DNA of 64,000 nt from an uncultured Oscillospiraceae bacterium (GTDB lineage: Bacteria; Bacillota; Clostridia; Oscillospirales; Oscillospiraceae): positions 1 through 64,000 of the forward strand of contig CANQTW010000012.1 in NCBI GenBank assembly GCA_947626845.1, given 5' to 3'. The position numbers and the translations under genes are program-made. The notes below the pieces were generated by a model. It was not told the DNA's origin. It did not search any database and saw only the letters and a list, made by a program, of their open reading frames with translations. This document shows positions 805 through 51,096 of this stretch, one piece after another. The stretch's first letter is position 1. The number at the start of each line of letters is the position of its first letter.

Positions 805-2031
<1,227 letters not shown>

Positions 2032-2033
2032 TT

Positions 2034-2308
2034 TGAATGAAAAGGGCATGGCCCTTTTCATTCAAGAGGAAACGTGCGGGAAAAAATTCTGAGTTTTGCG
2101 AAATTCAGAATTTTTCCCCTGCTGTTTTGCTCCGCGCACAGTCGTCGTCGCACGAGCCGCTTTACTTCGGCCTCCCGATGGTCGGCCTCAGGCGCAGGCT
2201 CGGCTTCTCCTCTCCCCACCGAACTACGTTCGGCGGGGACCCCAGGTGGGGCCGCACACTCCGCAAAACAAAAGGGATTTTTTGCAAGGCGCATGTCCTT
2301 GCAAAAAA
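2034..2308 (+). repeat. Structured intergenic repeat, copy A (argG|argH)
   Basis: The segment starts with a perfect 14-bp hairpin (2034-2064, loop ATG), then AACGTGCGGG (2071-2080), an A/T hairpin (about 2081-2115), a long arm closed by TGTTTTGC (2123-2130) and GCAAAACA, and a perfect 12-bp hairpin TTTTTTGCAAGG/CCTTGCAAAAAA (2278-2289/2297-2308) with loop CGCATGT. About 105 extra bases, themselves hairpin-rich, lie inside the long arm compared with copies B and C. The last hairpin ends 24 nt before the argH start. The same parts in the same order recur at 28465, 39216 and, shortened, at 49217. Confidence 0.8.
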
Positions 2309-2332
2309 TATTTATTATGGGAGGAAAAACGT

Positions 2333-12606: not shown

Positions 12607-13423
12607 GGCTCCTCCTGCCTCCGCGCCTCTATGGATATAGACGCAAAATGAGCGCGGATATTACGGGGTTAAGCCATTTTATGCGGGGGGAAAGGGGGGC
12701 GACACCCTGGCGGGGGTATAAGGGGGCCGCCCTTATAGGGCGGAGGGGGATTTTATTGCCCTGCCAGGGCGGGGGGATGTCCGCCGAGCGGCGGAGAAGT
12801 TTTTCGCCTTATAGGCGAAAGGGAGATTTACTTTCTCCTCTTTTGTGTTGACAAAAGAAGAGAAAGTAACAAAGAGGAGAAAAACAACCAGAGGGGGGAT
12901 TTCGATTTCCCCCCTCTGGACACCCCCTTGAAACGACCAGAGGGGGGCTTGCGAGCCCCCCATCTGGATTCCCCCAGGGGAGCGCCCGCGGAAAAGATGT
13001 TGCGGAAATTGAATACTGCCGCGCACGATGGGAAAATTCGACAGTGCGGCGTGTGAGCCGAGCGGGTCTGGCCCCTACAGGAAAATAGGAGCAGAAAAAT
13101 AGGAGCAGATTTTCAAATTACCACACGATAAGCAATCACCAGCGCGGACCGAAAGAGGAACGATGGTTTTGATTATAGAGCGGTGAGCGGCCAAGCGGGT
13201 TAGACGCTGAGACAATTCGGGGACGTACCGCGCGGATATGAATGGGACCATTGGTATCGACCACCTCCGCGGGAGCCGAACCGCCGTAAAAACGCTTGGG
13301 CCTGGTTCACCACCAGGCCCAAAACGAAATCTTTTCTCTTTTTGCTAAGCTTTTTCTCTTTTCCATTTCGGGAAAAGAGAAAAAGCTGACCCCCGTCCGC
13401 CTGGAAGGCGGACATTCTTTTGT
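12607..13423. other. Hairpin-rich, gene-free spacer
   Basis: About 820 bases with no credible gene. It holds consecutive palindromes: CCGCCCT-TATA-GGGCGG near 12729; a long TTACTTTCTC.../...GAGAAAGTAA hairpin at about 12828-12870; two CCAGAGGGGGG-type hairpins at about 12890-12921 and 12939-12968; TGGGCCTGGT/ACCAGGCCCA at 13297-13321; and an AAGCTTTTTCTC... hairpin at about 13347-13388. The tandem GAAAATAGGAGCAG doublet is at about 13080-13107. A start-less frame on the minus strand (about 13105-13290) reads through GSAPAEVVDTNGPIHIRA and may be a remnant or part of a repeat. Confidence 0.6.
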
Positions 13424-28464: not shown

Positions 28465-28677
28465 GAGACTGTCGGAAAAACCCTGACGGGCTTTTCCCGA
28501 CAAGGGGAACGTGCGGGTAATTTTCTATGAATTTTGCGAAATTCAGAGAAAACCACCCTGCCGTTTTGCTCCGCGCACGGCCCGCGGGGCCGCACACTCC
28601 GCAAAACAAAAGGGATTTTTTTCGACGCACATGCCGCCGGAAAAAATAACGAATTTGAGTTTTTTGACAAGCTGAAA
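28465..28677 (+). repeat. Structured intergenic repeat, copy B (parE|sdaAB)
   Basis: Starts GAGACTGTCGG with an imperfect hairpin holding CCCTGACGGG; then GAACGTGCGG at 28507-28516; an A/T hairpin around ATGAATTT/AAATTCA; a long arm closed by GTTTTGC/GCAAAAC with inner GGCCC-GCG-GGGCC; a hairpin TTTTTTC.../...GGAAAAAA with GACGCACATGCCGCC inside; and the tail GAATTTGAGTTTTTTGACAAGCTGAAA-like shared with copy C. Ends about 16 nt before the sdaAB start. Confidence 0.8.
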
Positions 28678-34342: not shown

Positions 34343-34418
34343 GCGGCCTTAGCTCATCTGGTAGAGCGCCACCTTGCCAAGGTGGAGGTAGCGAGTTCGA
34401 GCCTCGTAGGCCGCTCCA
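34343..34418 (+). tRNA. tRNA-Gly (anticodon GCC)
   Basis: Acceptor GCGGCCT/AGGCCGC, D arm around TTAGCTCATCTGGTAGAGC, anticodon stem CCACC/GGTGG with loop TTGCCAA, T loop TTCGAGC, discriminator T and encoded CCA. All arms pair normally. Confidence 0.97.
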
Positions 34419-34468: not shown

Positions 34469-34495
34469 GAGATTAAACATGGAGGGGAACCCTGA

Positions 34496-34652
34496 CGGTT
34501 CCCCTCCATACCTCCCCTCCTTCCGAACATACGGTTCCCCTCCATACCTCCCCTCCTTCCGAACATACGGTTCCCCTCCATACCTCCCCTCCTTCCGAAC
34601 ATACGGTTCCCCTCCATACCTCCCTTCCTTCCGAAAATACGGTTTCCTTTCC
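34496..34652. repeat. 36-bp tandem repeat, about 4.3 units
   Basis: Units begin CGGTTCCCCTCC at 34496, 34532, 34568 and 34604; the fourth has a few changes and a 13-base partial follows. The first unit starts in the right arm of a GGAGGGGAACC/GGTTCCCCTCC hairpin (34481-34507). Because 36 is a multiple of three, frames stay open on both strands, but no real gene is seen. Confidence 0.9.
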
Positions 34653-34739
34653 AATATAACGCACCCGCGCGTGGGGTGAAAATGTCTCCCTGCACAATTC
34701 CCCGACGGGAAATCGCGGGTAAAAACGTCATAATATTGC

Positions 34740-39177: not shown

Positions 39178-39186
39178 TCCGCCAAA

Positions 39187-39214
39187 AACGGGCCGGCTTC
39201 CACGCCGGCCCGTT
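39187..39214. terminator. Terminator-like hairpin after dacF, left of repeat copy C
   Basis: AACGGGCCGGC/GCCGGCCCGTT, loop TTCCAC. Almost the same hairpin occurs at 39421-39448 on the other side of the repeat. Confidence 0.75.
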
Positions 39215-39215
39215 C

Positions 39216-39421
39216 GAGACTGTCGAAAAAGCCCTGAGGGGCTTTTTCCGACAAAGGGAACGTGCGGGCATTTTTTCTGAATTTAGCGAAATTCAGAAAA
39301 AATTGCCCTGCCGTCACGCTGCGCGCACCGCAAAGCGGCACACTTGCGTGACAAAAGGGATTTTTTCCGACGCGCATGTCGCCGGAAAAAATATCGAATT
39401 TGAGTTTTTTGACAAGCTGAA
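39216..39421 (+). repeat. Structured intergenic repeat, copy C (after dacF)
   Basis: GAGACTGTCGAAAAAG start, first hairpin with CCCTGAGGGG, GAACGTGCGG at 39258-39267, a perfect 14-bp hairpin TTTTTTCTGAATTT/AAATTCAGAAAAAA with loop AGCG (39271-39302), an arm closed by GTCACGC/GCGTGAC with inner CCGC-AAA-GCGG, and a last hairpin TTTTTTCCG/CGGAAAAAA containing CGCGCATGTCG. Ends TTTTTTGACAAGCTGA, an imperfect inverse of the start. The compensatory change of the arm (GTTTTGC/GCAAAAC in A and B, GTCACGC/GCGTGAC here) shows that pairing is conserved. Confidence 0.85.
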
Positions 39422-39448
39422 ACGGGCCGGCTTCCAAGCCGGCCCGTT
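39421..39448. terminator. Terminator-like hairpin right of repeat copy C
   Basis: AACGGGCCGGCTT/AAGCCGGCCCGTT, loop CC; near-duplicate of 39187-39214. The remaining ~100 bases to 39548 are AT-rich with no gene. Confidence 0.75.
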
Positions 39449-39548
39449 CGTCATAACGTCATCTTCAAAAATTTTTGTTCACAAAAATTTAATTATTTTT
39501 ATACTTGACAAAGCAATATTCTTGTGCTATAATTGCTTCGTAAATGGA

Positions 39549-48507: not shown

Positions 48508-49218
48508 ATGGAAAAGCGCGAACAGCTCTATGAGGGCAAGGCCAAGAAGGTCTTCGCCACCGATGACCCCAACCTTGTCATCGTAAGCTACAAGGACGAC
48601 GCCACCGCCTTTGACGGCCTGAAGAAGGGCACCATCGCGGGCAAGGGCTCCATCAACAACCGCATGACCAACTTCCTCATGAAGAAGCTGGAGGCCGCCG
48701 GCGTGCCCACCCATCTGGTGGAGGAGCTTTCTGACCGAGACACCTTGGTGAAGAAGGTCAGCATCGTGCCCCTGGAGGTCATCATCCGCAACGTATCCGC
48801 CGGGTCCTTCTCCAAGAAGTACGGCGTGCCTGAGGGCATCGTCTTTGACGCGCCCACCATCGAGTTCAGCTATAAAAACGACGACCTCCACGATCCGCTT
48901 CTCAACGCCTACCACGCCGTTGCCCTGAAGCTGGCCACCTGGGAGGAGATCGAGCTTATCAAGAAGTACGCCTTCGCCGTCAACGACTTCCTCAAGGCCG
49001 AGATGCTCGCCTGCGGCGTGACCTTAGTGGACTTTAAGCTGGAGTTCGGCAAGACCGCGGACGGCCAGATCGTGCTGGCCGACGAGATCAGCCCCGACAC
49101 CTGCCGCTTCTGGGACGTGAAAACGGGCGAGAAGCTGGACAAGGATAGGTTTAGAAGAGACCTTGGCAACGTGGAGGGCGCTTACCATGAGATGATGAAG
49201 CGCCTTGGGCTGGCGTGA
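48508..49218 (+). CDS. purC: SAICAR synthetase
   Basis: 236 residues; EGKAKKVF near the N-terminus, EVIIRNVSAGSFSKKYG and DEISPDTCRFWD motifs. Start at 48508 follows CCTGGAGG; the longer frame would run back into purA. Its stop codon lies in the first hairpin of repeat copy D. Confidence 0.95.
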   Translation: MEKREQLYEGKAKKVFATDDPNLVIVSYKDDATAFDGLKKGTIAGKGSINNRMTNFLMKKLEAAGVPTHLVEELSDRDTLVKKVSIVPLEVIIRNVSAGSFSKKYGVPEGIVFDAPTIEFSYKNDDLHDPLLNAYHAVALKLATWEEIELIKKYAFAVNDFLKAEMLACGVTLVDFKLEFGKTADGQIVLADEISPDTCRFWDVKTGEKLDKDRFRRDLGNVEGAYHEMMKRLGLA

Positions 49219-49292
49219 AAGCCCTGACGGGCTTTCAATGCCAAAAGGAGAACGTGCGGATTTTTCTCAAGGCGCATGTCCTTGAGAAAAAT
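49217..49292 (+). repeat. Structured intergenic repeat, copy D, shortest form (purC|purF)
   Basis: GAAAGCCC-TGAC-GGGCTTTC hairpin (49217-49236), GAACGTGCGG (49250-49259) and, directly after, a perfect 13-bp hairpin ATTTTTCTCAAGG/CCTTGAGAAAAAT with loop CGCATGT (49273-49279). The middle arms of copies A-C are absent, which defines the minimal unit. Box ACGTGCG can pair with loop CGCATGT over 7 positions (one G-T). Confidence 0.85.
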
Positions 49293-50833: not shown

Positions 50834-50838
50834 CAACC

Positions 50839-50956
50839 CGTTAACAAAGGCAAAGCCTTTGCCAACGGAAGGAATTTGCCGGTCCCCTCCATGCACTTCG
50901 TACACTGCGGGGACCTGAAAGGGGCAAATTTCGACGTACATGCCGCCGAAATTTGC
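50839..50956 (+). repeat. Structured intergenic repeat, divergent copy E (after purF)
   Basis: Same order of hairpins with other stems: AAAGG-type hairpin first (AAAGGC/GCCTTT), a middle arm GGTCCCC/GGGGACC (50881-50914), and a last 10-bp hairpin GCAAATTTCG/CGAAATTTGC (50924-50956) enclosing ACGTACATGCCGC. The last loop matches copies B and C; the GAACGTGCGG box is not recognisable. Confidence 0.6.
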
Positions 50957-51096
50957 ATTAAAATTTTTTCGTGCCTGCGGGCGCGAAACTCTGCGAGGCT
51001 TTTAAACGCTTTGCGCGTTTATTTTTCTATTATACTATTTGCGGGCTTTCTTTTCAACAAAATATCCGCGGCGCGGCGAAAAAAAGCGCGTGGGAG

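Follow-up and report, generated by a model that had tools for sequence, protein, structure and literature searches.

The window analysed here, a stretch of 64,000 nucleotides from an uncultured Oscillospiraceae bacterium, contains five related repeats, termed copies A to E, all of which lie in spacers between genes and read on the plus strand. Copy A is found between argG and argH, copy B before a serine ammonia-lyase beta gene, copy D between purC and purF, and copy E after purF. Copy C is flanked by a gene resembling those of D-Ala-D-Ala carboxypeptidases and, in convergent orientation, by an SDR reductase gene. On the basis of a covariance-model match and of reading the sequence, copy C occupies 39216..39419 (plus strand) and extends from a 5′ terminal inverted repeat (TIR), GAGACTGTCGAAAAAG, to a 3′ TIR, TTTTTTGACAAGCTG (39405..39419, plus strand). 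It is bracketed by two terminator-like hairpins (39186..39214 and 39420..39448), which differ by one mismatch and represent the left and right copies of a target duplication. The first-pass annotation had located the start of this copy correctly, and its end, given as 39421, is here moved to the junction with the right-hand hairpin. Within copy C, hairpin P1 (39221..39253) overlaps the 5′ TIR and is followed by the box GAACGTGCGG (39258..39267, plus strand), hairpin P2 (39266..39308), stem P3 (39313..39352), in which GCGCAC and GCACACT enclose a variable inner hairpin, and hairpin P4 (39360..39392) with the 7-nt loop CGCATGT. The full element of about 204 nt has imperfect TIRs at both ends and carries no transposase gene, as expected of a MITE. 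Elsewhere in the window, a tandem array of a 36-nt unit (34495-34674) is located directly behind a tRNA gene (34343-34415), and a perfect match to a sigma-70-type promoter (TTGACA-17-TATAAT, with an extended TG) at 39505-39533 points into the 3′ end of an opposite-strand gene.

The other copies vary around this arrangement. Copy B (28465..28676, plus strand) is a full element with both ends, at which a flanking hairpin duplication was not found. Copy A (2030..2309, plus strand) has its own P1 (2032-2065), an insert of about 100 nt in P3, and P4 at 2277-2309, without a recognisable 3′ TIR. Copy D (49207..49292, plus strand) is a compact P1-box-P4 form (P1 49211-49243, P4 49260-49292). Neither A nor D has recognisable ends, and in this respect they depart from a MITE. 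Copy E (50835..51000, plus strand) comprises P1 (50837-50868), P3 (50881-50915), P4 (50924-50956), a further hairpin P5 (50967-50988) and AAACTCTGCGAGGC (50986-50999), the last two being absent from A to D. This copy had been regarded as divergent and as ending at 50956, but it is the canonical form of the family and extends to about 51000. In the genus of the host the order is a 5′ TIR overlapping P1, AAGGGGAACGTGC, P2, P3 (GCGCAC-variable hairpin-GCACACT), AAAAGGGA, P4 with its 7-nt loop, ATCGAATTTGAG and the 3′ TIR. The box and P2 are features of this genus; in the copies from other genera that we inspected, the box and a P2 of this type were not seen, and P5 and a mini-hairpin, AACTCTGCGAGGC, precede the 3′ TIR. 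The P4 loop of 72 family copies is CACATGT in 32, CGCATGT in 15, TACACGC in 14 and TACATGC in eight, with three others occurring once each.

The existence and kinship of the five copies were borne out by a covariance model (R1) built from 28 copies of the own genome, including B and C and excluding A, D and E. This model matched all five at E ≤ 1.6e-13 (C 39217-39392, 206.7 bits; B 28466-28647, 186.4 bits; A 2030-2309, 129.1 bits; D 49207-49292, 61.8 bits; E 50835-50956, 42.6 bits). A second model (R2), for which 30 copies were taken from other genera only, matched E at 50871-51000 (E 1.5e-18), C (1e-14) and B (3.2e-11), and recognised only the last hairpins of A and D (E 2.3e-6 and 3.4e-6). 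When folding was compared with dinucleotide shuffles, none of 200 was as good for A, B, C or D, and one of 200 for E.

The repeats had been described as a five-member family, a description that stands as regards relatedness and falls as regards size. The own genome (2,575,467 bases in 68 contigs) contains at least 48 distinct copies with box and last hairpin, of which 39 are full length, three compact (D-like) and six equipped with an insert (A-like), after 11 spurious or double box matches had been removed by eye from the 59 raw hits of the search. A BLAST search of the same genome with copy C returned 43 long pieces, full or partial and 79-100% identical, among which a single copy is sometimes represented by two pieces. 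The 3′ end by itself (19 nt, with three mismatches allowed) occurs 47 times, compared with 0 for the reversed control. The first-pass annotation had proposed a covariance-model search of family genomes together with a comparison with Rfam. R1 matched 76 of 150 genomes of the Oscillospiraceae, representing 62 of 106 genera, and R2 matched six of 391 genomes drawn from the class, namely the own genome, one congener, one family member and three from outside the family, the last being weak matches (best E 4.8e-6, 2.1e-4 and 6.1e-4); no other family member is among the genomes listed in that draw. Copy numbers per genome in these searches are lower bounds, because at most 18 (150-genome set) or seven (391-genome set) candidates were scored in each. 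Rfam scans, of the window at gathering score and of 15 loci at a permissive threshold, placed no family on the element, in keeping with the view that the motif lies outside Rfam; sub-threshold matches, such as one to naRNA4 (37.5 of 59.5 bits, L105), were taken as chance. With the terms used, we found in the open-licence literature no account of the element, nor any of IS1182 elements duplicating a hairpin.

The exact 22-mer AACTCTGCGAGGCTTTTTTGAC from the 3′ motif is present in at least 120 stretches of genome contigs. Among the 80 matches listed, all belong to the Oscillospiraceae or Ruminococcaceae or to unplaced Eubacterium, Eubacteriales or Clostridia, and the genera include Flavonifractor, Oscillibacter, Faecousia, Limivicinus and Enterenecus. 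The same 22-mer is present in two viral-contig stretches (IMG/VR contigs L408 and L409), and a phage similarity search with the element gave no match. The corresponding plasmid search gave one record, Vescimonas fastidiosa pMM35_01, a replicon of 861 kb that carries dnaA and gyrA/B, on 150 kb of which R2 identified eight strong and four weak copies. The eight strong copies occur in both orientations, and two of them lie antisense inside apparent operons (e.g. nusA-ylxR). In this organism an annotated minus-strand “hypothetical protein” (L410:46927-47106) overlaps an element (L410:46885-47034), and the element may therefore be mis-annotated as a gene.

Flanking sequences were compared for 32 of the 48 own copies (in the other 16, an end was not recognisable or the flank was shorter than 40 nt) and for 81 of 121 exact-motif matches from the family (22 were without flanking DNA and 18 more without a recognisable 5′ end). 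The same hairpin is present on both sides of the element in 62 of the 81 family copies, which differs from the IS1272-type outcome of hairpin removal without duplication, and in 15 of the 32 own copies; mismatched flank pairs share a hairpin in only 0.23% (family) and 0.10% (own) of cases. Copies without a hairpin duplication number 19 and 17, respectively. Among the family copies, the median length of the duplicated piece is 28.5 nt; one hairpin makes up at least 80% of it in 57 of 62 cases, and its two copies abut the element ends at fixed offsets. Direct orientation was found for 53 of the 60 flank pairs with a score of at least 14, while six matched better when inverted and one was a tie. 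In one nested case a copy sits at the P1 hairpin of a second copy, and that P1 hairpin is duplicated.

Orthologous sites in two congeners, G117 and G020, differ in occupancy. Copy C is missing at its site in both, G020 retaining a remnant there in the opposite orientation, and copy A is likewise missing in both. The D site is occupied in all three genomes, the compact form at the purC-purF junction being common to the own genome and G117, and a full-length element being present in G020. In G020 the argG-argH spacer is filled by a copy of another repeat, a palindromic spacer repeat found in the window at 12770-12991 (inverted repeat 12828-12869), which has several dozen BLAST matches in that genome. 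TIR-only derivatives of roughly 40 nt, consisting of the two ends alone, are found in the own genome in the L031:1540 and L039:1501 regions, the second of which sits between copies of one hairpin.

The terminal repeats of the element resemble the ends of IS1182 transposase genes. A search of the own genome with PF13751 identified one gene (L096:526-1947), an IS1182 transposase by its match to NF033551 (380.7 bits, cut-off 270), whose ends (ACAGTCTGTCAAAAAAC/GTTTTTTGACAGACTGT) lie between two identical hairpins, copies of GGCGGCTCCCCTCTCCGAGGGGAGCCGCC. Among 12 IS1182 loci inspected, five have ends of the element type and seven have other or no clear ends. Three of the five (those of the own genome, G117 and G066) sit between two copies of one hairpin, with an inverted loop in G066, and the remaining two (G011 and G071) are without a flanking hairpin repeat. 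No co-occurrence of the element with IS1182 genes was evident among the 150 genomes, as the element is present in 20 of 38 PF13751-positive genomes, 28 of 55 with any NF033551 match and 10 of 15 above the cut-off, compared with 76 of 150 overall (overlaps counted by hand). Draft assemblies lose IS genes that are present in several copies, which may have happened in these genomes. The suggestion that the repeat is a MITE is supported by the IS1182-type terminal inverted repeats, the hairpin-long target duplications, a putative partner with matching ends, presence and absence at orthologous congener sites, and the tiny TIR-only derivatives.

With respect to genes, copies sit mainly behind stop codons. 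They had been thought to lie mostly just before start codons, which is not the general pattern: among copies with a gene call, the closest gene upstream is directed at the element in 38 of 44 from the own genome and in 65 of 77 fetched from the family. Convergent gene pairs outnumber divergent pairs 14:2 in the own set, 25:2 in the fetched family set and 39:1 in a third copy set, and in tandem gene pairs sense outnumbers antisense orientation 19:4, 18:7 and 22:8, respectively, in counts for which gene strands were called from the codon usage of this window alone and for which the three sets may share genomes. The orientation of the element shows no bias relative to terminator polarity (19:12, p 0.28).

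We consider it probable, at roughly three chances in four, that these sequences represent a non-autonomous mobile element (MITE) that is spread across the family and mobilised by transposases of the IS1182 family. A transposase supplied in trans would recognise the two ends, GAGACTGTC(G)AAAAAG and TTTTTTGACANNCTG, and join these at both feet of a terminator-type hairpin. The target hairpin may be extruded as a cruciform, with the element ends attacking the 5′ feet of both stem-loops, and we propose that repair then copies the hairpin, so that the element ends up between two hairpins. P1 has the look of a bidirectional terminator, with a T run inside its stem, although it was not called as one when the region of copy C was scanned for such patterns, and the P1 of the element might replace the termination signal, in which case insertion at a gene 3′ end would cost little. 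Copies without recognisable ends, A, D and others like them, are presumably old or decayed, and the conserved core (P3, P4, P5 and the mini-hairpin) is, in this reading, kept as a foldable strand. A point against the reading is that recognisable TIRs are absent from several copies of long standing.

The arm exchanges quoted in the first-pass annotation, in which letters change and pairing is kept, are present in the sequence, and the covariation claimed from them extends across the family. Of 87 family copies fetched, 15 fell outside the canonical search and 72 fitted it, six of these being dropped as odd. Alignment A3, which comprises 30 of 41 non-redundant family copies and favours a clean P3, since some of the 11 copies excluded by eye were excluded for a differing P3, has 86.9% of cells paired (72.9% when shuffled), 23 of 33 pairs with changes on both sides, and a covariation score of 0.402 compared with 0.150 when shuffled and at most 0.099 when slid, which is the covariation looked for in a structured non-coding RNA. 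Outside position 3, P4 is Watson-Crick in 855 of 864 cells, with two G-T and four A-C pairs; position 3 is A-C in 47 of the 72 copies, A-T in 14, T-C in six and C-C in five, and a fixed mismatch near the P4 loop is present in 58 of 72 stems. The inner helix of P3 is rich in C-A and A-C (154 of 320 cells), and P3 of the exact-motif set has 68 other mismatches in 521 cells, mostly T-C (31 of 71 at one pair). Across all helices of alignment A4, A-C pairs number 228 and G-T pairs 27, compared with 15 and 11 in its other helices, away from the fixed sites. Where a non-Watson-Crick pair is conserved, it is A-C when read on the plus strand and therefore G-U on the minus strand. From these pair counts it follows that palindromy is strictly kept in P4 and most of P5, and that the minus strand is the one indicated by the fixed non-Watson-Crick sites.

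It is conceivable, if rather unlikely, that the core is a structured non-coding RNA on the minus strand, opposite to the strand of the first-pass annotation, and is carried by the MITE. Besides the conservation of loops and joints and the G-U character of the fixed sites, which recalls the excess of G-U over A-C in a THF riboswitch read on its own strand, such an RNA would account for the better folding of the minus strand in 55 of 72 copies and in 53 of 58 (58 of 71 matches, chosen by length), a strand difference absent from shuffled sequences of the 72 set. DNA energy parameters give the same strand preference, however (56 of 58 copies), and off the fixed sites wobble pairs are nearly absent from either strand, unlike a control THF riboswitch from the same bacterial family, which on its own strand has 180 G-U and 24 A-C pairs in 839 cells. 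A promoter-like pair (9 of 12) at the 3′ end of copy C (39388-39415) would read the minus strand into the core, but the sense excess in tandem gene pairs makes that strand predominantly antisense. The strictness of the Watson-Crick changes, with few half-changed cells, would also be expected if template switching at palindromes let one arm serve as the template of the other, the fixed loops being transposase-related sites or hitch-hikers and no product being selected, and the half-changes in P4 of young own copies, six G-T and six A-C, agree with this. Such copying is an unlikely explanation of the whole, as the conserved unpaired GCGCAC/GCACAC, the loop, AACTCTGCGAGGC and the fixed P4 mismatch need another cause, and correction would remove the T-C mismatches that P3 of the exact-motif set retains.

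A cis-regulatory, riboswitch-like leader of downstream metabolic genes is very improbable. It could explain why A and D occur in arg and pur spacers and why the box can pair with the P4 loop in A, C and D, but divergent gene pairs, in which the element would stand in both leaders, are nearly without copies, and the argH of G117 lacks the element. The box, moreover, was not seen in other genera, and in D its link to the 12-pair stem appears too short for an intramolecular pseudoknot. The box-loop pseudoknot had been suggested from the window copies. With G-T allowed, 17 of 47 own copies form all seven pairs, 22 form six and eight form five; the box core is identical in 44 of the 47, and the pairing therefore cannot show covariation. 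In the other-genus copies inspected the loop is still conserved where the box is not seen, and in full own copies the GCGG of the box reads as equally pairable with an invariant CCTGC at the foot of P2; we accordingly reject the pseudoknot. We also rejected a long-range closing helix in which the joint following P1 (GCTTGCAG) would pair with the 3′ motif (CTCTGCGAGGC), as the 3′ motif varies without a clear matching change in the joint and is better fitted by its own CTC/GAG mini-hairpin (TTC/GAA in L120 and L124). The earlier observation is thus confirmed in part, and its interpretation partly supported. Returning to the element and its probable mobilisation by IS1182-family transposases, we weakly favour, as a working guess, a core that acts as folded DNA in mobilisation, with a minus-strand RNA as the alternative. 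Tentatively, and at odds short of even, the core may be described as a nucleic-acid device not described before, some 130 nt long and folded either as minus-strand RNA or as single-stranded DNA, which is compensatorily conserved in about 60 genera and mobilised by IS1182-type ends onto gene 3′ ends, usually with duplication of the terminator hairpin; the family of gut bacteria would then have a mobile 3′-end element in common.

Several known systems share some of these features. REP/BIME sequences, associated with RAYT transposases, are numerous hairpins scattered over intergenic regions, whose stems covary and keep a conserved mismatch, all of which applies to the element too. To our knowledge, REPs have neither TIRs at both ends nor target duplications, in contrast to the element, which has both. 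Group IIC introns sit behind terminator hairpins; the element shares this position and, in own-genus copies, a GTGCG string after P1, but it has no Rfam intron match and its flanking hairpin duplication is not an intron feature. The idea of a group IIC intron, like that of a ribozyme, found no support.

Correia, ERIC, BOX, RUP and SPRITE, reviewed in PMC10969869, are stem-loop-bearing bacterial MITEs that resemble the element in being short, non-coding, intergenic and foldable, with inverted ends; the element differs from them in its multi-hairpin core, compensatorily conserved over 60-odd genera, and in its hairpin-long duplications. An uncatalogued element with several hairpins, which half of the genomes sampled from a gut-bacterial family carry, often in many copies, permits a test of RNA against folded DNA. 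For IS1182, long variable direct repeats are reportedly listed in ISfinder, and the hairpin duplication may therefore be partly known. In PMC5678879, IS1272 of staphylococci is reported to remove its target hairpin without duplication, and hairpin duplication is drawn only as branch 6b of a model; TnSha1, also of staphylococci, is reported to remove the hairpin likewise (PMC4923244). Both systems are like the element in having an IS1182 transposase (a putative partner here), inverted terminal repeats, and hairpin targets without sequence consensus that are often terminators. Hairpin-targeted transposition of the IS1272 type is thus known as a hairpin-removing reaction, whereas the natural series described here keeps the hairpin whole on both sides of the element. 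This series shows an outcome so far only drawn in a model, and the reaction is therefore testable from sequence and in vitro.
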